Source of the DNA: Aegilops tauschii subsp. strangulata
Taxonomy: Eukaryota > Streptophyta > Magnoliopsida > Poales > Poaceae
Direction of reading: 5' to 3'
Length of the DNA: 64,000 nt
NCBI RefSeq assembly: GCF_002575655.3
Contig: NC_053039.3
Location: 243,328,622-243,392,621, forward strand
The notes under the pieces were generated by a model. It made no database searches. It was not told the DNA's origin and saw nothing but the letters and a program-made list of their open reading frames with translations. This document shows, piece by piece, positions 7,059 to 51,098 of the stretch. How positions within the stretch are numbered: position 1 is the first letter of the stretch; every line of letters starts with the position of its first letter. The position numbers and the translations under genes are program-made.

Positions 7059-8585
7059 TGATGACCCACAAGTACAGGGGATCTATCGTAGTTCTTTCGA
7101 TAAGTAAGAGTGTCGAACCCAACGAGGAGAAAAAGGAAACGACAAGCGGTTTTCAACAAGGTATTCTCTGCAAGCAATGAAATTATCGGTAACAAATAGT
7201 TGTGTGATAAGATAATTCGTAACGGGTAACAAGTAAAAAGTAACAAGAGTAAATAAGGTGCAGCAATGTGGCCCTAGCCTTTTTGTAGCAAAGGACAAGC
7301 CTGGACAAACTCTTATATAAAGCAAAGCGCTCCCGAGGACACATGGCAATTACTGTCAAGTTAGTTTTCAGCATGCTCATATGATTCGCGTTCATTACTT
7401 TGATAATTTGATATGTGGGTGGACCGGTGCTTGGGTGCTGCCCTTCCTTGGACAAGCCTCCCACTTATGGTTAACCCTTCTCGCAAGCATCCGCAACTAT
7501 GAAAGAAGAATTAAGATAAATCTAACCATAGCATGAAACATATGGATCCAAATCAGCCCCTTACGAAGCAACGCATAAACTAGGGTTTAAGCTTTTGTGA
7601 CTCTAGCAACCCATCATCTACTTATTACTTCCCAATGCCTTCCCCTAGGCCCAAACAATGATGAAGTGTCATGTAGTCGACGTTCACATAACACCACTAC
7701 AGGAGAGACAACATACATCTCATCAAAATATCGAACGAATACCAAATTCACATGATTACTTATAACAAGACTTCTCACATGTCCTCGGGAACAAACGTAA
7801 CTACTCTACAAAGCATATTCATGTTCATAATCATAGAAGTATTAATTATCATTAAGGATCTGAACATATGATCTTCCAACGAATAAACCAACTAGCATCA
7901 ATTACAAGGAGTAATCAACACTACTAGCAACCCACATGTACCAATCTGAGATTTTGAGACAAAGATCGGATACAATAGATGAACTAGGGTTTCAGAGGAG
8001 ATGGTGCTGGTGAAGATGTTGATGAAGATTGACCCCCTCTCAATGAGAGGATCGTTGGTGATGACGATGACTTTGATTTCCCCCTCCCGGAGGGAAGCTT
8101 CCCCGGCAGAACAGCTCCGCCGGAGCCCTAGATTGGTTCTGCCCAGGTTCTGCCTCGAGACGGCGGCGCTTCATCCCGAAAGCTTCCTCTTCATTTTTTC
8201 TAGGTAAAAACACACCATATAGCAGAGGATGGGCACCGGAGGCCTGACAGGGGGCCCACAAGGTAGGGGGCCGCCTAGGGGGTAGGGCGCGCCCCCACCC
8301 TTGTGGATGGCTGGTGTCCCCCCTCTAGTGCTTTCTTCGCCCAGTATTTTTTATATATTCCAAAATAATTCTCCGTGAAGTTTCAGGACTTTTGGAGTTG
8401 TGCAGAATAGGTCTCTAATATTTGCTCCTTTTCTAGTCCAGAATTCTAGCTGCCGGCATTCTCCCTCTTCATGTAAACCTTATAAAATAAGAGAGAAAAG
8501 GCATAACTATTGTGATATAATGTGTAATAACAGCCCATAATGCAATAAATATCAATATAAAAGCAAGATGCAAATGGGCGTATCA
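7059..8585 (-). repeat. 5' LTR of Gypsy element B (Fatima-like)
   Basis: On the minus strand it begins TGATACGCCCATTTGCATC and ends CTTGTGGGTCATCA (1527 bp). It is clearly the same family as the LTR at 49597-51098, sharing block after block. A minus-strand TATA-like tttatataag lies near 7310-7321. Sequence right of 8585 belongs to MULE1, so element B probably inserted in or beside MULE1; its other end is outside the window and the target duplication cannot be tested. The name Fatima-like is from memory of the family. Confidence 0.85.
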
Positions 8586-20320: not shown

Positions 20321-23300
20321 TCATTCTTCGTCCGAGCTCTCGTACGCCAGGCCAAGCAAGCTTCCAGTCACATTTTGTGGCCTAGACTCCGTTGCTTCAG
20401 CTGGCTTTGGTTCATTCTGACATGAAGACATTTTGCTGACAGAAACTTCCTGGTTCAGCTTAGGTCCGTCGTTCTCTGCCGCTTGCGGAGAGCTGCAAAC
20501 CTTGGGTCGCTTCGGTTTGATCCCAACAATGTTCTTCAAGAGATCCCGTTGCCTGCCAATTAGGTATGCCCCAATGTTACGACAGGGCGCGGTGGATGGA
20601 AACCTAATGTTTGCTGCGCACAGCTTAGTAGCATACCTTATGTCGCTTTTTGGCCTGGCGTCGACACAAAGAGCGGCGGGTAGAGCAGGTGCAGAATCAG
20701 CTAAAGTCGCTGCTTTGTAAGGGGAGGGTTAAAGAAATCAAACAGACTATAGCTACACAAATCTAAATGAGAAACTACCCCTGGCTAGGCATGTTCCTCT
20801 GTTCTGCTATTCCAACTAATGGAAACAAATCACATAATAAAGATGTGGAAAATTGCACGACAAGTTAAATGAGAAATCACCCCTGGCAAAGCATGTCTCT
20901 ACTGTGCTATTCCACATGATGAATAATAGATCAAGTAGTAAATATGTGTACTATCGCAAATTGGCATACCAGGAGCTAGAGGAGCGCTTGGATCGTGTTG
21001 ACCAAATATTATTGGGTTTTTATCAGTTTTGCCATCGGTTGTATAACGCTACTCAGTTTTGCCATTAAACATTTTCACTACTCAAAAATGCCACTGTTCT
21101 GTTATATCAAGCTCAAAAAGACCATTTTTCACTGTTACCGTTTGGTCAATACACGTTGACTAAAGTTAGATGACGAAATTACCCCTATCCCATTTGTAAG
21201 GGCCGCATGAGAAAAAGAGAAAAAAAATTGAGAGGCTGGGGTTTGAACCCAAGACCACTGTTCTGTTATATCAAGCTCAAAAAGACCATTTTTCACTGTT
21301 ACCGTTTGGTCAATACACGTTGACTAAAGTTAGATGACGAAATTACCCCTATCCCATTTGTAAGGGCCGCATGAGAAAAAGAGAAAAAAAATTGAGAGGC
21401 TGGGGTTTGAACCCAAGACCACGGGCTACACAAGCCCGCGAGCTAACCAACTGAACCATGGTAACGATTTGTTTTGTGAGGAGATACAGTCCTTATATAC
21501 AGATGTCTTAACCTAACTAAACAAAATCTTATCTAATCCTTGACCCGATCTGTTCGTGGCAGTTTCCCTTTCCCCAGCCGGAACCAATATCCCCGGTCAT
21601 CGCCGCCGCCTGCCAAACTCCTCACCTGGCACCGCCGGTCGCCGGGCTGCCCGCCCAGCTCCGGCGCGCCCCCACTCGCCACAGCTGCGGCGCCTCCCGC
21701 CAAGTGCCGCCACGCATCGCAGCTTCGGCTCTTCCTCCCGCCCGGCACCGCCACCGGAGGCAGGCAGCTCCGGCGCTTCTCCCGGCTGACTCCGCAGCTC
21801 CTCCCAAGTCTTGAAGTGCAATTGTTCCACGGCGATGGCGACGAACAGCAGGACCGAATCGGAGGCTTGCATCGGCCACAGGACGCCCCAACATGACATA
21901 GGCTCTGAAATTCCTGCATTGTGAGTATACTAATTCTCAGTGTGCGTGTGTGGTTGAATATAACTTGTAGAGGTCGAAATTTGTACATAGAATTTGTAGT
22001 AGCTGACTTTGCCTTACTGATAATCGCGTGCAATTTGGTACTTGTGTTCCTGATGGTCAGGATGGATGCGGATACTGCTTGTATGCTGACAGTTAGGATG
22101 GAAACAAGCCGTGAGAATAGCGATGGTCTCAAGCGATATGTTGGCGGCTTTGATTTTCATCTATTTGTAGAACCTAGTATCACACACAAAACATTGCTGC
22201 ACAAACTGTGTGATACCTATCCATGGGGGTGGCGTGATTACGTTGAGTTGAAGTACTATGACAGGGAGCAGAATAAATGGGTTGCTGTTGTATGTGATGA
22301 TGATGCAGCTTTGATGTTTGGAAAACATCAAGATTCAAAGAAAATATCTATGCAAATTGAGGTTCTTCAAAAATCCCAAACTCCTAGCACACCTAGCCAT
22401 AATCCACCTACACAACCTTGTTACAGTGAGAGTCAACATACAGGGAGTCAGGCAGTTGATGTTGATACAGTCAACATACAGGGAGTCAGGCAGTCTAATA
22501 GTGTTGACGATGCTAATAGAGACATAACCGATGATGCTATACCTGATGATGCTATTCTCTCGGATAATGATGATGAGCGGCAGTATCCAGACTTAGTCAA
22601 GAAGTCTACCAAAGAAGATGATTCGGCAGATATGGAAGAGGAAGATAATCCTCCAGCATATGAATCCACTGACACTGAAGAGGAAGAAGAGAATAGAGAC
22701 ATGGGTTTAGTTGATGAAGAGGAAGAGGAGGAGGAGGACAGACCTGTTGTAGTATATAACAAGGAGAATCCATTATTTGCAGAAGGCTCGGTATTCCCCT
22801 CTTTGTTGGACTGCAAGAATGCACTTTCTACTTTTGCAATTAAACGTGAATTTGACTATACAGTCGAAAAGAGTGATTCTAAGAGGCTGAGAGCAAGTTG
22901 TGCATATAAGAGGTGTAAGTGGAGAATTCATGGCTCTTATATGAGGAATAGCAGAATATTTCAGGTATAACTTGCTAACATCTAATTGATTTGTTTATTG
23001 TACCCTTTATTTTGTGGAACTGGTAACTATACAAATGTGGCAAGTTTAACATACTAGCAACCTACTAACTGATTTTGTTGTTTCCTACAGATCAAGGTGT
23101 GTCCTTTCTCTCATACATGCCCAACTAAGCTGAGAAGTGAGAAGTTCAAGCCGGCAAAGAGCAGGTGGGTTGCTGATGTTGTGCTGGAGTGGGTGAGAAA
23201 GAACCCAGATATTGGCCCTACTGCTCTTCAAGAGAAGATCCATGAGAAGTACCACTTCACGGTGCCATACATGCGTGTATCTCGTGGTAAGGACAAAAGA

Positions 23301-26300
23301 GATGATGGTAATTAGACACAGTGATGTTGAGGCAGAAATTACTGCAGTGGACAAAGAGAATAGGGAATGGAGATTACCCTGTTGACATCGCAAAGGAAAC
23401 ATGTAGCTGTAGGCAATGGCAGGTCAAGGGTTTGCCATGTATCCATGCCATGTACTTTATTACTTCACTACGAGGTCCAGTATCAGAAATTGAACCATAT
23501 GTACATGAGTTCTACTCCGTTGCAAAATTTAAGGCTGCGTATGCGGACAACATACCTGCAATGGTAGGCAAGCAACAATGGGACATTGTTGACCCTGGCT
23601 TCAAACTACATGCTCCAGTGTTGAGGAGGCCAAAAGGCCGACCAAGGAAGACTAGAATTAGATCTAGTGCTGAAGGTGCTGGCGTGGGCGCTAGGAAAAG
23701 GAAGTGCAAGCGATGCGGAGGCTTCGGGCGCATTGCCAGATTGTGCACAAATCCAGTTGACCCAGCATTTGGAGAAGATGAGGCTGACCTCCAAGCTAGG
23801 GAAGCCCCTTTTGTGGCAGGAGAAGGCGACCCTGAACTATCAATGGTTGCAAGTTCTGCTAGGTAACATCAAAAGAACATGTGCTTTTCTATATGTATTT
23901 TCAACATCTATTTTCATTCTTTTTTGCAACATGACTAACTTCTGTACAGCTCAAAGAAAAGTGTAGTCACTGTTCCCCTCTAAATTCCGTTTTGTCTTAA
24001 AAGTCGAGCGAGACGCCCATGGTCGAGGCGGAATCCATGGCTCTCGCGACCCCGCGGCCGCGGCCGGCGGCGCCGCGTTGATCTCCCTCCTCCGGCCGTC
24101 ATTTCAGCCGCCGAGACCAGATCCGGGCTGCTCTCCGCGTCCTCTCCCAGCTGCACTCCCTCTCCCCTTCATGCTCTTGAGGTGCTGCTCATGGCCCTCG
24201 CGTCTGCGTCGTCATCTCCGACTCCGTCGGAAGCCTCAGCTGCTGCCGCCGCGCTGGCCGCGGCTGCTCTTGCCTCCCGCATGGCCGCCCCGGCAGCTGG
24301 AGGTCGTCTGTCCCGTGCTGGACTCCCGCCAAGGCCAGATGTGGCAGCACCTCCGATGGCGCAGTCGGGCAAGCGCTCCCTGCCTCGCCCCGGGCCTCCT
24401 CCGAGCGGCGTCGCCGCGTTTTCCGCCCTGGACGCGGCGCGTGATGCTCCAGATCATGCTCCTGTCCTGGTGGTTGGAGGGCTTGGACCCCCTGCCTCCG
24501 CTGACTCTGCTCCTGGCAGCACCACGCTGTCAGCCCCGACTTCTACTGTGTGCACGTCGTCCCCAACTCTTGCATGCGCTGCTACGGTGTCCTCGACTCC
24601 TGTGGAAGCCCCGCCGCCACCCCCGGCTGCTGTTGCTGAAGCGCCGTCCACGACTCCAGCTGGCAACACCGCATCGTCCACGACTCCTGCTGGCACCACC
24701 GGACCGTCCCTGACTCCTGTAGAAGTGGCGCCATCCTCAACGCCTGTCGGCGCTGAGCCGGGTCTGAACAAGGCGCGATATGTCTCGTGGAGCTCCCTTA
24801 CCGACAATGAAGATGAAGAGGATGACGATGTGCTGGCCCCGCCGACGCTGCCGCCGGCTACCAAATCCTCAGTTCCGGCAGCTCAGCCGGGCATGGCGTG
24901 CGATGCGGATTCATGCGGTGGTTGGCAAAAGGTGATGCCGCGACGCAACGTGCAATGCCCTGTATCACTAGGCCCTGCACTGGCTCCCCGTCCTATCCCC
25001 GCTTGGCTTCATGGTAGATGTTGCAGATGCCTCTATCCTGGACACCGTGCAGCGGAGTGTCGAGATCCTTTTAGGTGTTCTCGATGCCTTGAGAATGGTC
25101 ATCGAGCGCGTGGGTGCCGCAATGCCTGGCGTCCCCTCAGCTTTTTGGGAAGCCCTACTTTGTCAGCATTGCCCCGCCTCCCTGTCGGACACCAACAAGC
25201 TTCAGTTCCTTGCAAGGTCCGGAAAGAAGCCACGCCCCTCTCGAAGACGTTTGGTCGCGATTCTTGGGCATCGATCGTTCCTGCTCCTGCTAGCTCTGTG
25301 GCCTCGGCGGATATCCCAGTGCGGCCTGCCTTGGAGAGGCAGGCCGAGTTGTTGTGCTCTGAGCTCCTTGATATGGCTTCCTTCCGGTTTGAGGAGACGG
25401 TCCAACCTCTGCGTGATGTCGTTGACTCCATGCAAGGTTGGATGTTGCGGATGGAGAGCTTCATGGAGCGAGTTGAGGCTGCACTAGGAGGGCTCTCCCT
25501 GGCGCCGCCTGTGTTGCAGAGTGCTCATGTGTTGCGCCCTTTGATTGTGCCTGATGGCAGCTTCGAGGTCGAGAGGGGAGACGAGCTTCATGGTTGTTTC
25601 TCCCCTCGTGCTAGAGCCAGCTCGCCACCGTCGGCCTATGAGGGTCTAGGCAATGATGTGGTTGTGACTCCGGTGCTGCAGATCATGCCTGAGCTTCGGG
25701 AGCTGTGTGGAGGCTCGGTTCTGCCTCTGTCCGTCGAACAACCGAAGGTAGACCCTCCTGAGATCTCAATTGTGGCTTTATCGCCAACGTCACCCCTGGA
25801 TTCTAGCCAGATACTTGATGCTGAGGAGTGTGGTGATTTGGATGTTTCAATATCTCCATCTCCTAAGTCCATTGGGTGTCAGGCGTCAACCAGTTTACCT
25901 CTTGGTGTCATGGAGCATGGAGTTCTAGATGTTGCTGATGTTCCCTCGTTTGCGACCATGGAGCAGGTGATGCCTGTGAGTGACATGACCATTGAGCCAA
26001 GTGTGTTGGCACCTACTCCAAATCCAGATGCTCTCTTCGCGAAGGAACTTTGTGACTTGCTCGCCAGTGTGGAGGTTGCTAGACCTGGTTTGGGCAGGTC
26101 GATTGCTTGCCTCTTGACGGGGACACCAATAAGGGGCAAACAAAAGAAGGTGGGCAAAGGAAAGAGTGGCGCCATGGGCAAGGCGTCTCTCGCTGCTTGA
26201 TGGATGACCTTCGATCTCTCGGCTTGTCCGCTTTGATTGGGTTGTCGTTGAGGGTTGGGAGGTGCCTGATGTCTTGTGTCGAGCTGTTCTTGTCGGGGGT

Positions 26301-28757
26301 CTCTTGGCGTAGTAGCAATATCGGGGTTTGTGGACGTTGTGTATTCGGAGAGTCTGGGAGGGGCCGCATGTGCTGTTGTGGGGTTTCTTGCCATGTGAGG
26401 AGTTAGTCCATGCTCCATTTGTATTGGTTTTCGCCCGGTTTTCCGTAAATAACTGGGCAATTCTCTTCTTCTTAATTAGTCGATGAGGCAAAACTTTTGC
26501 CTCTGTTTCGAAAAAAAATTGTGAAGAACACTAGGAAAAGGAAGCACATGCAAAATGAAGTTTGTACCACAACCGATGGACCTGCAAGTGGATTTGTTTC
26601 GTCTCCCATGCATATTCGAATTGCAAATGCGGAACCACCAGACAGTCCTGCTAAAAACACAAGAAGCAAAAAGAAGCTACATATGTGAAGTTTGTGTGAT
26701 CGTGACCTTTTGCTTGTGAACCTGGACATGTTTCCTTTCAACCTTATGCATGTTTGAGAATTTGGACCTTTATATTTCGACCAACAAGTGGATGTTATTG
26801 AACCTTATTTATGTTTGTGAACCTGATTTGTGTGTGCTGAAAAAACAACCTTATTTATGTCTGTGAACCACTTTGTGTTTGTGTCGTTTTCAGAAAAATG
26901 GGCAGCAACCATGCTGAAATTTTCATAGAAATATAGAATACCATGTGATCATGCTGTCATATGTGTTGTTTCTGTCGATTAGTGTGTGACCATCAAAAAA
27001 TTTGGGCGTGGCGGTCTGCCTCATTTGTTTATGTCTACTAGTACCAAACAGTTTCTTCTAGCCGGCCAGCCGCTCGTGCGGATCTGTTGTCCATACTAAC
27101 TTTCAAACCGAAGTTCAACTATCTAGCAACAGGAAAATATATGAGGCGTTGCTGTGTTGGAATATTATTCCATATAACATATAATGGATATATCTCCTTC
27201 TGCATCATAACATCTCCTTAGATCAGTTGGTTTGCTCGCTTCTTACTGGAGGTTGTGGTCTTGGGTTCGAAACCCCAAGACGACAATTTTTATTCTATTT
27301 TCATGCACCCCTTACAAATGGTCCCACAAGTCAACACAGAGAGACGGGGGGTTCATAAACGGGACAGGGGTATTTTTGTCATCTACCTCCAGTCAACGTG
27401 TATTGACCAGACGGTAACGGTGAAAAATGGCATTTCTGAGTTTGTGTCTAACGGAACAGTGGCATTTTTTATTAGTGAAAACATTTAGTGGCAAAACTGA
27501 GTAGCGTTAGACAGCCGATGGCAAAACTGATAAAAACCCAATATTATTTTATAAAATGCAAGCTACGCTGTTTCATTAAATATAAAGAGAGGATATCTTA
27601 AAAGCAGCAAATGCCCGCTTCTCTGTACGGCGAAGACGACGCTCTGCATCTTCCTCGGCCTCCATTTGCTCTTTGAGGTAAAGCAAATCATCACTGTCCA
27701 ATGCTGAAAAACATAAAAGTAATACAAAAAAAATGGTTAACAAGCAACCGGCATGGAGCCCTCCTTGAAGAAGCATGAAATACCTCCTCGTCCATGAAGG
27801 TAGCCTCCCCTCTCACCGGCAACATCCTGCATCTGTTGGCATCAACCGCCCAGTACAGAGCCAAAATTTCTGTGAGGGCATGTTATCAGAACATTGCGTG
27901 TAAAACTCAACTGGTAGCAGTAGTAAGGGAATCGAGCTTGCAAGGAATGTTGTGACATCTCACAGCCCCAGCTACCAAGTAATATAAATGTTATTCTACC
28001 AACAAACCAATGATCTCAGCAGAGTATACACGCAACCTCAACCTAAGGCAGCCCGTTAAATATTTCTGACCACATTGGATGATCTATCACAGTGTAGAGA
28101 AAATTATGAAATTCAGTCTACATTATTTTTTTTACTTATTCTGATAACATCAAATGTACTACTCTATATCAGCAGCACCAAGCCATATATAATGCATATT
28201 CTAGCACAGCAACATGTAAGAAGAAAATCACCACTCCAGCACATTCAACGCTATGCCAGATTGACACCACATAAGTGCAAAACTTAGCAAATCCATTCAT
28301 TCAGACATCAAAAGTATTATTTTGGCCAAATTTAACCTCTTCTTTGTTGAATTTTAAATTATATTTTAGCAGCTAATGAAATTGTCTCTTACAAAAATAG
28401 GATAAATGGCAGAAAAGTAAGACTTGATATAATAACATCTTATATGCAGATATTTAAAATAATGTGTTTAGACATACATCAAATGCAGTAGCAGTACTAA
28501 ACTAACAATACAATCCAGATAACCTTTGCAACCATGCGCTGAAAGGTGACGTCCTCATCATCGATCTTGTCCTTCCCCTTCCCTGACTTCCTATCTGCAC
28601 ATCCACAGCACAAATCCCAAATGTCATCAAAATGATCCCAATTTAAATGCCTAACAGACAAGGAAGGGTAAGAACTTGTTGGCTACAGGAGAGTGATGAA
28701 TCAAGAACCTTTAGGATCGCTGAGATTGGTATACTCACGGACCTCACGTCCAGACAT
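20321..28757 (-). CDS. Conserved plant protein of unknown function (six exons, AT-AC intron 4)
   Basis: Coding exons on the minus strand: 28709-28757, 28524-28594, 27784-27832, 27597-27703, 20637-20716 and 20321-20552. They total 588 nt (195 aa plus stop), with junction phases 1, 0, 1, 0 and 2 agreeing throughout. It starts MSGREVREYTNLSDPK, has a charged helical middle (LYLKEQMEAEEDAERRL, RTEKRAFAAFKKAA), a basic IVGIKPKRPKV motif, and ends SLLGLAYESSDEE. I recognise the pattern as conserved in grasses but cannot name the protein. No signal peptide or membrane segment; the composition suggests a soluble, partly disordered, possibly nuclear protein. Introns 1, 2, 3 and 5 are GT-AG; intron 4 is AT-AC and holds a 6.5-kb MULE. 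No stop or frameshift was found in the exons, so the gene may still be expressed. The exon 3 acceptor at 27832 is the least certain join. Confidence 0.82.
20553..20636 (-). other. Intron 5 of the host gene, 84 nt, open in frame
   Basis: Minus strand: donor AG/GTATGC, acceptor TTGGCAG/GC with a ctaat branch-like motif. It has 84 nt (28 codons) and no stop in the reading frame, so retention would add 28 residues rather than truncate. I chose splicing because removal rejoins a K-S-D-I-R/Q-R-D-L-L stretch that reads as one conserved block. Confidence 0.65.
20766..20922. repeat. Imperfect duplication inside intron 4
   Basis: aaatgagaaactacccctgg...gctattcca at 20766-20822 recurs as aaatgagaaatcacccctgg...gctattcca at 20867-20922, about 101 bp apart. 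It lies between exon 5 and the MULE. Confidence 0.7.
21005..21013. repeat. 9-bp target site duplication, left (aatattatt)
   Basis: aatattatt directly precedes the MULE terminus gggtttttatcag and recurs exactly at 27540-27548 after the other terminus. Nine base pairs is the standard Mutator-superfamily duplication. Confidence 0.95.
21014..21456 (+). repeat. Left TIR of MULE2, with a 164-bp perfect tandem duplication
   Basis: Aligns inversely to about 27218-27539. The segment 21091-21254 is repeated directly and, as far as I can read, without a mismatch from 21255 on, with ccac at the join. The right TIR has a single copy, so the duplication arose in this TIR after the element formed. The inner end carries a tRNA-like segment. 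Confidence 0.9.
21400..21456 (-). other. tRNA-like segment at the inner end of the left TIR
   Basis: On the minus strand: a D-arm-like ttcagttggttagctcg, a perfect 5-bp anticodon stem (CGGGC/GCCCG) with loop TTGTGTA (anticodon position GTG, His-like), a 5-nt variable loop, and a T-arm with loop TTCAAAC inside a B-box-like GGGTTCAAACCCC. The acceptor stem does not pair and the D stem is poor, so this is not a functional tRNA gene. Confidence 0.6.
22053..23310 (+). pseudogene. MULE2 mudrA-type transposase, N-terminal part (two exons)
   Basis: Exon 22053-22964, intron 22965-23090 (GTATAAC...CCTACAG), exon from 23091. Contains the mudrA N-terminal ubiquitin-like/MuDR region (KRYVGGFDFHLFVEPSITHK), an acidic stretch (about 22560-22740), and the zinc-ribbon-like DNA-binding block (KRLRASCAYKRCKWRIHGSY, then CPFSHTC after the intron). 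The upstream start is uncertain; an acceptor-like tcag precedes the Met at 22062. The frame collapses after YMRVSRGKDK near 23300, where the DDE domain should follow. Confidence 0.85.
23320..23866 (+). pseudogene. MULE2 transposase, SWIM and CCHC zinc-finger part
   Basis: Contains the SWIM finger (CSCRQWQVKGLPCIHAMYF, about 23402-23460), the block following it (EPYVHEFYSVAKFKAAYADN), a basic linker and a CX2CX4 knuckle-like CKRCGGFGRIARLC near 23706. A gtaacatc donor at 23864 and a ctgtacag acceptor at 23949 suggest a further intron to a short final exon, now split by a LINE. The segment joins directly to the N-terminal part without the roughly 300 residues carrying the D-D-E triad. Confidence 0.85.
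23960..26519 (+). mobile_element. LINE inserted in MULE2 (ORF1 only)
   Basis: The 3' end has the plant LINE signature ...gaggcaaaacttttgcctctgtttcg followed by eight A residues at 26511-26518. The 5' boundary is approximate: GC-rich leader begins near 24000. It splits the last MULE2 transposase exon (ctcaaagaaaagtgta at 23951 and resumption at about 26520). I could not identify a clean target duplication. No endonuclease or reverse transcriptase lies between ORF1 and the 3' UTR. Confidence 0.8.
24182..26200 (+). CDS. LINE ORF1 protein, gag-like with two zinc knuckles
   Basis: An uninterrupted 672-codon frame. The N-terminal third is Ala/Pro/Thr-rich with repeated TPAGTT-like units, followed by an acidic patch (TDNEDEEDDDV). 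Two CX2CX4HX4C knuckles sit at about residues 280-312 (CRCLYPGHRAAEC and CSRCLENGHRARGC), the RNA-binding signature of plant LINE ORF1. A predicted helical segment (RQAELLCSELLDMASFRF) and a long acidic C-terminal region with a basic tail (KQKKVGKGKSG) follow. ORF1 would coat LINE RNA. The start could equally be the second Met at codon 4. Remarkably intact for a dead LINE. Confidence 0.75.
   Translation: MLLMALASASSSPTPSEASAAAAALAAAALASRMAAPAAGGRLSRAGLPPRPDVAAPPMAQSGKRSLPRPGPPPSGVAAFSALDAARDAPDHAPVLVVGGLGPPASADSAPGSTTLSAPTSTVCTSSPTLACAATVSSTPVEAPPPPPAAVAEAPSTTPAGNTASSTTPAGTTGPSLTPVEVAPSSTPVGAEPGLNKARYVSWSSLTDNEDEEDDDVLAPPTLPPATKSSVPAAQPGMACDADSCGGWQKVMPRRNVQCPVSLGPALAPRPIPAWLHGRCCRCLYPGHRAAECRDPFRCSRCLENGHRARGCRNAWRPLSFLGSPTLSALPRLPVGHQQASVPCKVRKEATPLSKTFGRDSWASIVPAPASSVASADIPVRPALERQAELLCSELLDMASFRFEETVQPLRDVVDSMQGWMLRMESFMERVEAALGGLSLAPPVLQSAHVLRPLIVPDGSFEVERGDELHGCFSPRARASSPPSAYEGLGNDVVVTPVLQIMPELRELCGGSVLPLSVEQPKVDPPEISIVALSPTSPLDSSQILDAEECGDLDVSISPSPKSIGCQASTSLPLGVMEHGVLDVADVPSFATMEQVMPVSDMTIEPSVLAPTPNPDALFAKELCDLLASVEVARPGLGRSIACLLTGTPIRGKQKKVGKGKSGAMGKASLAA
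26520..26688 (+). pseudogene. C-terminal exon piece of MULE2 transposase
   Basis: Reads VKNTRKRKHMQNEV...SPAKNTRSKKKLHM then stop; Lys/Arg-rich tails with this type of ending are usual at mudrA C-termini. It resumes immediately after the LINE poly-A. The following 26689-27217 is AT-rich 3' sequence without a gene. Confidence 0.6.
27218..27539 (+). repeat. Right TIR of MULE2, with tRNA-like inner end
   Basis: Inverse match of the left TIR, ending ctgataaaaaccc. The inner end (about 27222-27290) reads cagttggtttgctcg...ggtcttgggttcgaaacccc, with a B-box-like GGTTCGAAACC and T-arm TTGGG/CCCAA, facing the tRNA-like segment of the left TIR. The 9-bp duplication follows at 27540-27548. Confidence 0.9.
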
Positions 28758-45659: not shown

Positions 45660-46480
45660 ATGGCCCGTGCTACTGTTCCGTTGAATTTTAATGCGTCCTA
45701 GAGAAAGCTAAGTTGAAAGATGATGGTAGCAACTACACGGACTGAGTCCGTAACTTGAGGATTATCCTCATTGCTGCACAGAAGAATTACATCCTGGAAG
45801 CACTGCTAGGTGCAAGACCCGCTGCAGGAGCAACGCCGGACGTTATGAACACCTGGCAGAGAAAAGCTGATGACTACTTGATAAGTTCAGTGTGCCATGC
45901 TTTACGGCTTGGAACCGGGACTTCAACGACGTTTTGAACGTCATGGAGCATATGAGATGTTCCATGAGTTGAAGTTAATATTTCAAGCAAATGCCCGGAT
46001 TGAGAGATATGAAGTCTCCAATAAGTTCTACAGCTGCAAACTGGAGGAGAATAATTCTGTCACTGAACATATACTCAAAATGTCTGGGTACCATAATCAC
46101 TTGACTCAACTGGGAGTTAATCTTCCGGTTGATAGTGTCATTGACAGAGTTGTTCAATCACTGCCACCAAGCTACAAAAGCTTCATGATGAACTATAATA
46201 TGCAAGGGATGGATAAGACAATTCGTGAGCTCTTCGCAATGCTGAAGGCTGCGGAGGTAGAAATCAAGAAGGATCATCAAGTGTTGATGGTTAACAAGAC
46301 CACTAGTTTCAAGAAAAAGGGTAAAGGGAACTTCAAGAAGAACGGCAAGCAAGTTGCTGCTCAAGTGAAGAAGCCCAAGTCTGGACCTAAGCTTGAGACT
46401 GAGTGCTTCTACTGCAAAGGGACTGGTCACTGGAAGCGGAACTACCCCAAGTATTTGGCGGATAAGAAGGATGGCAAAGT
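45660..46480 (+). pseudogene. gag of Angela-like Copia element
   Basis: ATG at 45660, but a TAG occurs 13 codons on (ttttaatgcgtcctag) and another stop follows near 45744. From about 45897 the frame is open: HELKLIFQANARIERYEVSN and HLTQLGVNLPVDSVIDRVVQ are the gag capsid. The zinc knuckle reads CFYCKGTGHWKRNY, so the last Cys of CX2CX4HX4C is Tyr. Confidence 0.88.
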
Positions 46481-47174
46481 GAAAGGTATATTTGATATAC
46501 ATGTTATTGAAGTGTACCTTACTAATGCTCGTAGTAGCGCCTGGGTATTTAATACTAGTTCTGTTGCTCATATTTGCAACTCGAAACAGGGGCTACAGAT
46601 TAAGCGAAGGTTGGCTAAGGACGAGGTGACGATGCGCGTGGGAAATGGTTCCAAAGTCGATGTGATCGCCGTCGGCACGCAACCTCTACATCTACGTTCG
46701 GGATTAGTTTTAGACCTGAATAATTGTTATTTGGTGCCAGCGTTAAGCATGAACATTATATCTGGATCTTGTTTGATGCGAGACGGTTATTCATTTAAAT
46801 CAAAGAATAATGGTTGTTCTATTTATATGAGTAATATCTTTTATGGTTATGCACCCTTGATGAGTGGTCTATTTTTGTTGAATCTCGATAGTAGTGATAC
46901 ACATATTCATAGTATTGAAGCCAAAAGATATAAGTTTAATAATGATAGTGCAACTTATTTGTGGCACTACCATTTAGGTCATATTGGTGTAAAGCTCATG
47001 AAGAAACTCCATACTGATGGGATTTTGGAATCACTTGATTATGAATCACTTGATGCTTGCGAACCATGCCTTATGGGTAAGATGACTAAGACTCCATTCT
47101 CCGGAACAATGGAGCGAGCAACCGACTTATTGGAAATAATACATACTGATGTATGCGATCCGATGAAGTGTTGA
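46481..47174 (+). pseudogene. Protease and GAG-pre-integrase of Angela-like element
   Basis: The aspartic protease site that should read DTGS is FNTSSVAHICN here, so the catalytic Asp is Asn. The pre-integrase domain follows (TYLWHYHLGHIGVKLMKKLH, DACEPCLMGKMTKTPF), then the start of the integrase (LLEIIHTDVCDP, first D of DDE), before a stop at 47172-47174. Confidence 0.88.
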
Positions 47175-47597
47175 GGCTCGCGGCGGGTATCATTATTTTC
47201 TGACCTTCACAGATAATTTGAGCAGATATGGGTATATCTACTTGATGAAACATAAATCTGAAACATTTGAAAGGTTCAAATAATTTCAGAGTGAAGTGGA
47301 AAATCACCGTAATAATAAAATAAAGTTTCTACGATCTGATCATGGAGGAGAATATTTGAGTTACGAGTTTGGTCTTCATTTGAAACAATGCGGAATAGTT
47401 TCGCAACTCACGCCACCTAGAACACCACAGCATAATGGTGTGTCCGAACATCGTAACCATACTTTATTAGATATGGTGCAATCTATGATGTCTCTTACCG
47501 ATTTACCACTATTTTTTTGGGGTTATGCATTAGAGACAGCTACATTCACGTGAAATAGGGCACCGTCTAAATCCGTTGAGACGACACTGTATGAACT
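47175..47597 (+). pseudogene. Integrase core of Angela-like element
   Basis: Continues with FTDNLSRYGYIYLMKHKSET, a stop at 47279-47281, then KIKFLRSDHGGEYLSYEF (second D) and TPQHNGVSEHRNHTLLDM (third acidic residue E). A TGA near 47552 ends this segment. The integrase would insert cDNA into chromosomes; stops inactivate it. Confidence 0.88.
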
Positions 47598-48869
47598 ATG
47601 CATTTGCGGTTTCTTAAAGTTTGGGGCTGCGATGCTTATGTGAAAAAGCTTCAACCTGATAAGCTCGAACCCAAATCGGAGAAATGTGTCTTCATAGGAT
47701 ACCCAAAAGAAACTATTGGGTACACCTTCTATCACAGATCCGAAGGAAAGACATTCGTTGCTAAGAATGGATTCTTTCTAGAGAAGGAGTTTCTCTCGAA
47801 AGAAGTGAGTGGGAGGAAAGTAGAACTTGATGAGGTAACTGTACCTGCTCCCTTATTGGAAAGTAGTTCATCACAGAAATCTGTTTCTATGACTCCTACA
47901 CCAATTAGTGAGGAAGGTAATGATGATGATCATATAACTTTAGATCAAGTTACTACCGAACCTCGTAGGTCAACCAGAGTAAGATCCGCACCAGAGTGGT
48001 ACGGTAATCCTATTCTGGAGGTCATGTTACTTGACCAAGGCGAACCTACGAACTATGATGAAGCGATGGTGAGCCCAGAATCCGCAAAATGGCTTGAGGC
48101 CATGAAATCTGAGATGGGATCCATGTATGAGAACAAAGTGTGGACTTTGGTTGACTTGCTCGATGATCGGCAAGCCATAGAGAATAAATGGATCTTCAAG
48201 AAGAAGACTGACGCTGATGGTAATGTTACTGTCTACAAAGCTCGACTTGTTGCAAAAGGTTTTCCACAAGTTCAAGGAGTTGAGTATGATGAGACCTTCT
48301 CACCCGTAGCGATGCTTAAGTCTATCCGAATCATGTTAGAAATTGCTACATTTTATGATTATGAAATTTGGCAAATGGATGTCAAAAATGCATTCCTTAA
48401 TGGATATCTTAAAGAAGAGTTGTATATGATGCAACCAGAAGGTTTTGTCGATCCAAAAGGTGCTAACAAAGTGTGCAAGCTCCACCGATCCATTTATGGA
48501 CTGGTGCAAGCCTCTCGGAGTTGGAATATACGCTTTGATAGTGTGATCAAAGCATATGATTTTATACAGACTTTTGGAGAAGCCTGTATTTACAAGAAAG
48601 TGAGTGGGAGCTTTGTAGCATTTCTGATATTATATGTGGATGACATATTGTTGATCGGAAATGATACTGAATTTCTGAATAGCATAAAAGGATACTTGAA
48701 TAAGAATTTTCCAATGAAATACCTCGGTGAAGCTGCTTATATATTGGGCATCAAGATCTATAGAGATAGATCAAGACGCTTAATTGGACTTTCACAGAGC
48801 ACATACCTTGATAAAGTTTTGAAGAAGTTCAAAATGGATCAAGTAAAGAAAGGGTTCTTGCATGTGTAA
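47598..48869 (+). pseudogene. Reverse transcriptase of Angela-like element
   Basis: A long open frame of 423 codons. Contains the integrase C-terminal region (RSEGKTFVAKNGFFLEKEF), WIFKKKTDADGNVTVYKARL, the RT core (YDETFSPVAMLKSIRIML, MDVKNAFLNGYLKEELYMMQ) and the catalytic YVDDILLIGND. It ends at TAA 48867-48869 after KKGFLHV, just before RNase H. Apart from its separation from neighbours, the domain looks complete. Confidence 0.9.
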
Positions 48870-49596: not shown

Positions 49597-51098
49597 TGAT
49601 GACCCACAAGTATAGGGGATCTATCGTAGTCCTTTCGATAAGTAAGAGTGTCGAACCCAATGAGGAGCAGAAGGAAATGATAAGCAGTTTTCAGTAAGGT
49701 ATTCTCTGCAAGCACTGAAATTATCGGTAACAGATAGTTTTGTGATAAGGTAATTTGTAACGGGTAACAAGTAATGAAAGTAAATAAGGTGCAGCAAGGT
49801 GGCACAATCCTTTTTGTAGCAAAGGACAAGCCTGGACAAACTCTTATATAGAGAAAAGCGCTCTCAAGGACACATGGGAATTATCGTCAAGCTAGTTTTC
49901 ATCACGCTCATATGATTCGCGTTCGTTACTTTGATAATTCGGTATGTGGGTGGAGCGGTGCTTGGGTGCTGCCCTTCCTTGGACAAGCATCCCACTTATG
50001 ATTAACCCCTATTGCAAGCATCCGCAACTACAAAAGAAGTATTAAGGTAAACCTAACCACAGCATGAAACATATGGATCCAAATCAGCCCCTTACGAAGC
50101 AACACATAAACTAGGGTTTAAGCTTCTATCACTCTAGCAACCCATCATCTACTTACTACTTCCGAATGCCTTCCTCTAGGCCCAAATAATGGTGAAGTGT
50201 CATGTAGTCGACGTTCACATAACACCACTAGAGGAAACACAACATACATCTCATCAAAATATCGAACGAATGCCAAATTCACATGACTACTTATAGCAAG
50301 ACTTCTCCCATGTCCTCAGGGACAAACGTAACCACTCACAAATCATATTCATGTTCATAATCAGAGGGGTATTAATATGCATAAAGGATCTGAACATATG
50401 ATCTTCCACCAAATAAACCAACTAGCATCAACTACAAGGAGTAATCAACACTACTAGCAACCCACAGGTACCAATCTGAGGCTTTGGGACAAAGATTGGA
50501 TACAAGAGATGAACTAGGGTTTTAGAGGAGATGGTGCTGGTGAAGATGTTGATGGAGATTAACCCCCTCCCGATGAGAGGATCGTTGGTGATGACGATGG
50601 CGATGATTTCCCCCTCCCGGAGGGAAGGTCCCCGGCAGAACAGCTCTGCCGGAGCCCTAGATTGGTTCCTCCAAGGTTCCGCCTCGTGGCGGCGGAGTTT
50701 CTTCCCGAAAGCTTGCTTATGATTTTTTCTTGGACGAAAGACTTCATATAGCAGAAGATGGGCACCGGAGGCCTGCCAGGGGGCCCACGAGGCAAGGGGG
50801 CGCCCCCCCCCCCCACCTTCATGGCCAGGGTGTGGGCCCCCTCTGGTACTTTCTTTTGCCAGTATTTTTTATTAATTCCAAAAATAACTTCCGTGAAGTT
50901 TCAGGATTTTTGGAGCTGTGCAGAATAGGTCTCTAATATTTGCTCCTTTTCCAGCCTAGAATTCCAGCTGCCGGCATTCTCCCTCTTCATGTAAACCTTG
51001 AAGAGAGAAAAGGCATAAGTATTGTGACATAACATGTAATAACAACCCATAATGCAATAAATATCGATATAAAAGCATGATGCAAAATGGACGTATCA
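49597..51098 (-). repeat. 3' LTR of Gypsy element C (same family as element B)
   Basis: Minus strand begins TGATACGTCCATTTTGCATC and ends ACTTGTGGGTCATCA (1502 bp). The polypurine tract AAGCTTGGGGGAGT lies directly before it on the minus strand (51099-51112), so it is the 3' LTR. TATA-like sequence lies near 49838. Inserted in the 3' end of the Angela-like internal region. Confidence 0.9.

Follow-up and report, generated by a model that had tools for sequence, protein, structure and literature searches.

The locus described here raises the question of whether an AT-AC intron of apparent U12 type may still be removed from the transcript of its host gene after a Mutator-like element has come to fill 95% of its length. 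It lies in a window of 64,000 nucleotides from Aegilops tauschii subsp. strangulata, to which all positions given below refer (Table 1).

Recomputing the joins of the host gene bore out the original prediction of six minus-strand exons coding in phase for a 195-residue protein: spliced in silico, they gave an open frame of 588 nt, corresponding to 195 aa and a stop codon. Introns 1, 2, 3 and 5 are of the GT-AG type and measure 114, 691, 80 and 84 bp, respectively. Homology search with the host protein returned 748 proteins at E<=1e-3, the best 120 of which underlie all homologue statistics; these counts refer to database clusters and not to independent events, and several come from a Triticeae paralogue group. 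The closest among the best 120 was P0001 from Aegilops tauschii, identical in 189 of 195 residues, with the six differing residues located at positions 38-40 and 93-95, both sets at exon junctions. Homologues from bread wheat and wild emmer (P0002, P0003) showed 95-97% identity, and the best 120 of 748 spanned monocots and eudicots, as far as Amborella and Nymphaea. Judging by these relatives, the host appears to be a conserved flowering-plant gene, of which wheat has homologues as well as the paralogue group. As expected for a plant gene, no DNA of its relatives was found in bacterial and archaeal genome contigs.

It should be added that the wheat homologue P0003 is publicly annotated with the name of the FAM192A/Fyv6 N-terminal domain, and that host residues 57-92 match this family weakly (E 0.16). 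The Pfam model PF10187 scored 12.6 bits on the host protein, under the cut-off of 20.2; 4 of 25 aligned members of PF10187 matched it at E<=10 (best 0.16), and a search of solved structures gave no match at E<=10. Furthermore, the FVSE motif attributed to Fyv6 in PMC11651659 was not seen in the host protein. An identity with the FAM192A/Fyv6 splicing factor was rejected on these grounds.

Table 1. Positions in the window of the host gene, its intron 4 and the sequences inserted therein.
Feature	Positions	Strand	Basis or remark
Host coding exon 1	28709..28757	-	joins in phase; covered by homologues
Host coding exon 2	28524..28594	-	joins in phase
Host coding exon 3	27784..27832	-	joins in phase
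Host coding exon 4	27597..27703	-	joins in phase; last letters ...GCTTTTAAG
Host coding exon 5	20637..20716	-	joins in phase
Host coding exon 6, including stop	20321..20552	-	joins in phase
Intron 4, AT-AC, phase 0, 6880 bp	20717..27596	-	sequence
Intron 4 donor ATATCCTCT	27588..27596	-	sequence
Intron 4 branch motif TTCTTTAAC	20728..20736	-	sequence; second A 12 nt from intron end
Intron 4 acceptor AC	20717..20718	-	sequence
GT in exon 4 (GTACAG), candidate GT-AG donor	27627..27628	-	sequence
AG in exon 5 (GCAG), candidate GT-AG acceptor	20710..20711	-	sequence
Mutator-like element, 6526 bp, predicted non-autonomous	21014..27539	+	terminal repeats, 9-bp duplication, MuDR and SWIM domains
Target-site duplication AATATTATT, left	21005..21013	+	exact 9-bp copy
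Target-site duplication AATATTATT, right	27540..27548	+	exact 9-bp copy
Left terminal repeat, ~441 bp	21014..21454	+	contains 164-bp duplication
Perfect 164-bp tandem duplication, 2.0 copies	21091..21422	+	within left terminal repeat
Right terminal repeat, ~317 bp	27223..27539	-	matches left repeat
ORF with PB1 and MuDR (DBD_Tnp_Mut), first part of transposase gene	21909..22970	+	Pfam
Second transposase piece, ends at core deletion	23073..23315	+	compared with P0139
Transposase piece with SWIM zinc finger	23312..23866	+	Pfam
PAKNTRSKK, resembles MULE transposase C-termini	26647..26673	+	E 0.3-0.9; rests on position
Apparent nested insert, LINE-ORF1-like, GC 59%	23976..26519 (approximate limits)	+	~2.5 kb
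669-aa ORF with CCHC-like motifs	24191..26200	+	ATG as used in P0121; 17 homologues
Hairpin GAGGCAAAACTTTTGCCTC and eight A	26485..26518	+	3' end of nested insert

Intron 4 differs from the other four in both its ends, starting with ATATCCTCT and finishing with TTCTTTAACCCTCCCCTTAC. The donor consensus of AT-AC U12-type introns is ATATCCTTT, to which the donor found at this coding junction is close. The branch motif departs from the consensus TTCCTTRAY by a single C-to-T change, and its distance from the 3' end falls inside the optimum of 11-13 nt that a review gives for U12-type introns (PMC3584512); donors with ATATCC are exemplified in PMC7367187. As far as protein models tell, the place and the type of the intron are also conserved in orthologues. 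The original prediction that intron 4 is an AT-AC intron with a U12-type sequence and untouched splice signals is supported: donor, branch motif and AC acceptor are all present, the branch-to-acceptor spacing is intact and the host reading frame is open. Intron 4 would be an old AT-AC intron of the U12 type, and its removal would presumably depend on U12, bearing in mind that some minor introns classed by sequence were reported as unresponsive to minor-spliceosome inhibition (PMC10228655).

Motif counts taken alone were rejected as proof of a U12 intron, being too weak: the window contains ATATCCTY 7 times where 4.9 would be expected, and 7 is reached in 22 of 100 shuffles, and three same-strand pairs of donor and branch-plus-AC motifs are spaced by <=10 kb. 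The per-position rates of the two motifs are about 5e-5 and 2e-5, from which our own arithmetic gives roughly 1e-9 for finding both at two fixed places by chance, an estimate that remains very small if the junction is allowed to slide by a few bases. Chance is unlikely because both motifs sit on a coding junction that is fixed independently by the homologues.

This exon 4/5 junction is crossed cleanly by 105 of the 120 best homologues out of 748. Models from maize (P0033) and flax (P0080 and P0081, both of a single genus) have ISF directly after AFAAFK, which is the consensus donor ATATCCTTT in translation and hence supports the U12 reading. As a control, all five junctions were scored for indels within a span of eight surrounding residues, in the same best 120 of 748. 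They were found in 13 of 120 homologues at the AT-AC junction, and in 0/117, 1/117, 0/120 and 0/120 at the four GT-AG junctions, the first two of which are not covered by three of the proteins. Beside these 13, substitutions at the AT-AC junction were seen in two more proteins, P0001 and P0030, the control itself being one of indels. As P0001 has odd residues at junction 2 too, not every oddity stems from the AT-AC ends. These errors are most simply read as annotation programs stumbling repeatedly on one non-GT-AG intron, which would be old in flowering plants. The protein data thereby strengthen the U12 reading beyond the evidence on which it was first proposed. Separately, the paralogue proteins P0025-P0028 read FKQAAV, FKAAV or FKYQAAV at the 27597/20716 junction, variants such as would result from a choice between 3' ends that lie three bases from each other close to a TAC|CAG.

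Since other sites are used here in some public models, it might be argued that intron 4 is an ordinary GT-AG intron which had been misread. All GTs of exon 4 are, however, situated at least 32 nt before the exon end, and a stop codon 18 nt into the intron precedes any intronic GT; consequently no GT-AG pair yields the conserved protein. Together with the maize and flax models reading the donor as ISF, this led us to reject such a misreading, to which we allow almost no chance.

Some of the same public models bear on a second alternative, namely a twintron-like junction at which the major spliceosome would join a bracketing GT and AG with the in-frame loss of 13 codons, an outcome that the long insert may favour. 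Exon 4 does contain such a GT at 27628, and exon 5 an AG ahead of 20709, and the proteins of barley (P0008, LLRPTLADS) and Eleusine (P0099, LLRPILADS) fit a join of this kind, yet these are known here as protein models and may be predictions forced to GT-AG. Nested U2/U12 sites are already known, as described for the prospero twintron in PMC3564746, with which the present junction shares GT-AG sites surrounding AT-AC sites; the difference is that the GT-AG pair of the host gene is a candidate and may be an annotation artefact. Moreover, such a join would remove 13 codons (TEKRAFAAFKKAA) that belong to the best conserved part of the coding sequence, and it is the AT-AC junction that the 105 homologues mentioned above use. 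We consider this twintron-like arrangement quite unlikely, and regard as more improbable still its extension to a dual-class junction of grasses, in which lengthening and GC enrichment of the minor intron by the Mutator-like element in this lineage would shift the output between the 195-aa and a 182-aa protein and thus act as a dial between spliceosomes.

Turning to the inserted DNA, the proposed Mutator-like insertion with a 9-bp duplication was recovered, exact copies of the target site flanking the element on both sides. The element starts 57 nt inside intron 4, and 277 nt separate its other end from the branch motif. The claimed enlargement from 345 to 6880 bp holds as well, because removal of the element and of one 9-bp repeat leaves 6880-6526-9 = 345 bp. 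Outside the element, intron 4 contains a 31-bp repeat (20764-20794 and 20866-20896, 87% alike, 102 bp apart), and an old tandem duplication may be present even in the 345-bp baseline. Inverted terminal repeats are present, matching each other with gaps, although the "about 400 bp" first given for them is an approximate figure, the right one being ~317 bp and the left one ~441 bp long. Apart from the long terminal inverted repeats and the duplicated target site, the assignment is carried by a MuDR-type transposase, with Pfam matches to MuDR (PF03108, E 1.8e-15) and SWIM (E 1e-6). Its gene is on the plus strand and hence antisense to the host.

In comparison with P0139, about 299 residues are missing between the MuDR and SWIM parts of the transposase and the frame is changed, with the catalytic region gone, which makes the element a predicted non-autonomous deletion derivative. 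The first part of the transposase is identical in 302 of 305 residues to P0138, whose cluster contains 22 sequences, so near-identical copies exist elsewhere; within the window, no further copies were found (blastn, E 1e-3, with the self-match control working). Long terminal repeats, the 9-bp duplication and the PB1, MuDR and SWIM domains are shared with the grass MULEs, among which P0138 and P0139 are the nearest protein relatives, whereas the lack of ~299 transposase residues, the apparent nested insert and the duplicated left repeat distinguish the element of intron 4. The perfect 164-bp tandem duplication in that repeat is either very recent or an assembly artefact. Stretches resembling tRNA (GGTTAGCTC... 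and GGGTTCAAACCCC) were noticed by eye in both terminal repeats, at 21390-21480 and 27225-27290; neither ARAGORN (bacterial code) nor Rfam at gathering score reported any tRNA gene or RNA family in the window, these stretches included, and they are possibly internal Pol III promoter-like boxes.

The description of the insertion as a 6.5-kb MULE needs correction, as it looks to be a composite of a core-deleted MULE, an apparent ~2.5-kb nested insert and the duplicated left repeat. The PAKNTRSKK peptide, similar to MULE C-termini, stands on the far side of a GC-rich stretch of ~2.5 kb, which seems to be an ORF1-like insert with a poly(A) end that interrupts the element. The 3' end of this insert shows a hairpin (26485-26503) followed by eight A (26511-26518), the poly(A) tail being a feature of LINE-derived inserts. 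A search with its 669-aa ORF, in which scoring was confined to the 7991 candidates with most words in common, yielded 17 homologues at E<=1e-3, with all named sources being grasses and the best one showing 90% identity over 71%. No Pfam domains were detected in the 738-aa frame of the insert, visual inspection of the forward frames in the 330 bp that follow the ORF stop revealed no reverse transcriptase (ORF2), and no target-site duplication was found, as nothing exceeded a 7-mer or, when a single mismatch was allowed, an 8-mer. LINE-ORF1-like is used as a putative name for the insert. The homologues P0126, P0130 and P0132 lie on public contigs of 2.1-2.3 kb, and the insert perhaps belongs to a non-autonomous, ORF1-only family. 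The intron was lengthened in at least two and probably three steps.

According to the explanation that we favour and hold to be very probable, the Mutator-like insertion is tolerated in an old AT-AC U12-type intron, which is still removed to give the 195-aa protein. The element would have entered AT-rich intron sequence, creating the 9-bp duplication; it lacks some 299 transposase residues and would have been enlarged by the ORF1-only, poly(A)-ended insert and by the 164-bp duplication of its left repeat. U11 and U12 would most likely still recognise the intron, because its donor, branch site and branch-to-acceptor spacing have remained untouched; the whole 6880 nt, antisense transposase gene included, would then be removed to restore the ancestral protein. 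On this view, the insertion allele would be spliced correctly and the insertion would be neutral.

The opposite outcome would be an allele crippled by the insertion, with transcripts that stop in the element or keep the intron, while homoeologues or the paralogue supply the protein. Readthrough into a retained intron 4 would add ISSLYI and then a stop, the insert is partly GC-rich and antisense, and the wheat homologues and paralogue group could provide such a supply. Against this, the splice signals are intact and the host frame is fully open, and P0001 is identical outside the two junctions, so that no decay is visible; we hold a crippled allele to be unlikely. The tolerated insertion remains our preferred reading.

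Does the length of the intron itself speak against tolerance? The premise that minor introns are usually short is true of Arabidopsis, where the 246 U12 introns of U12DB measure 68-3731 bp and six exceed 1 kb (PMC5932401), a range that intron 4 surpasses altogether. It does not apply generally: a survey of more than 3000 genomes of eukaryotes reported a strong correlation between the median lengths of minor and of major introns (rho 0.903), with a median minor intron of 4019 bp in the black soldier fly (PMC10639083), and in 24 genomes mean U12 intron length followed genome size with r 0.87 (PMC7367187). In a genome as large as this one, introns of great length are to be expected, and that of intron 4 is then no surprise. 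Nor did the accompanying premise of slow splicing fare well, since in the CBP20 minigenes described in PMC5932401 three longer introns, when compared with the 134-nt one of Arabidopsis, were spliced better by factors of 1.28, 7.17 and 34.65, and a 153-nt moss intron was spliced very poorly. In mouse and human, shorter minor introns were reported to be retained more and longer ones to be alternatively spliced more (PMC6717393). Taken together, these papers do not bear out the conflict that had been supposed between intron length and minor splicing.

Intron 4 of CBP20 is also the nearest parallel, with AT-AC ends, a U12 branch motif, a conserved place across plants and a large length range (76-2733 nt) as given in PMC5932401; the host intron differs from it in being 6880 bp long, 95% of it one transposon, and in belonging to another gene. 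The same source names AT richness as a factor in plant U12 splicing, and the AT content of intron 4 is 63% without the insert and 51% with it. Among open-licence papers in PMC, as judged by titles and the beginnings of abstracts, no transposon insertion in a minor intron was recognised.

Other repeats in the window include Copia-type gag and reverse transcriptase domains at 45885-48869 and direct repeats at 7059-8481 and 49597-50999 (81-92% alike, 42.5 kb apart), which may represent either an old pair of LTRs or else solo LTRs, two in number. Two further pairs of 300-bp direct repeats, each 99% identical, are such as young LTR elements would give (10211-10510/14928-15227, 4.7 kb apart; 51590-51889/59650-59949, 8.1 kb apart).

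Large plant genomes commonly carry transposons in their introns. As long minor introns are already known, the present case is probably no great surprise but a useful natural experiment. The 345-bp and 6880-bp forms make a natural pair of states, in which a minor intron is set against added length and against transposon sequence that is antisense and in part GC-rich; the homoeologues would be likely to serve as internal controls. Furthermore, the database gene-model errors at the AT-AC junction suggest a cheap route to AT-AC introns through protein databases.
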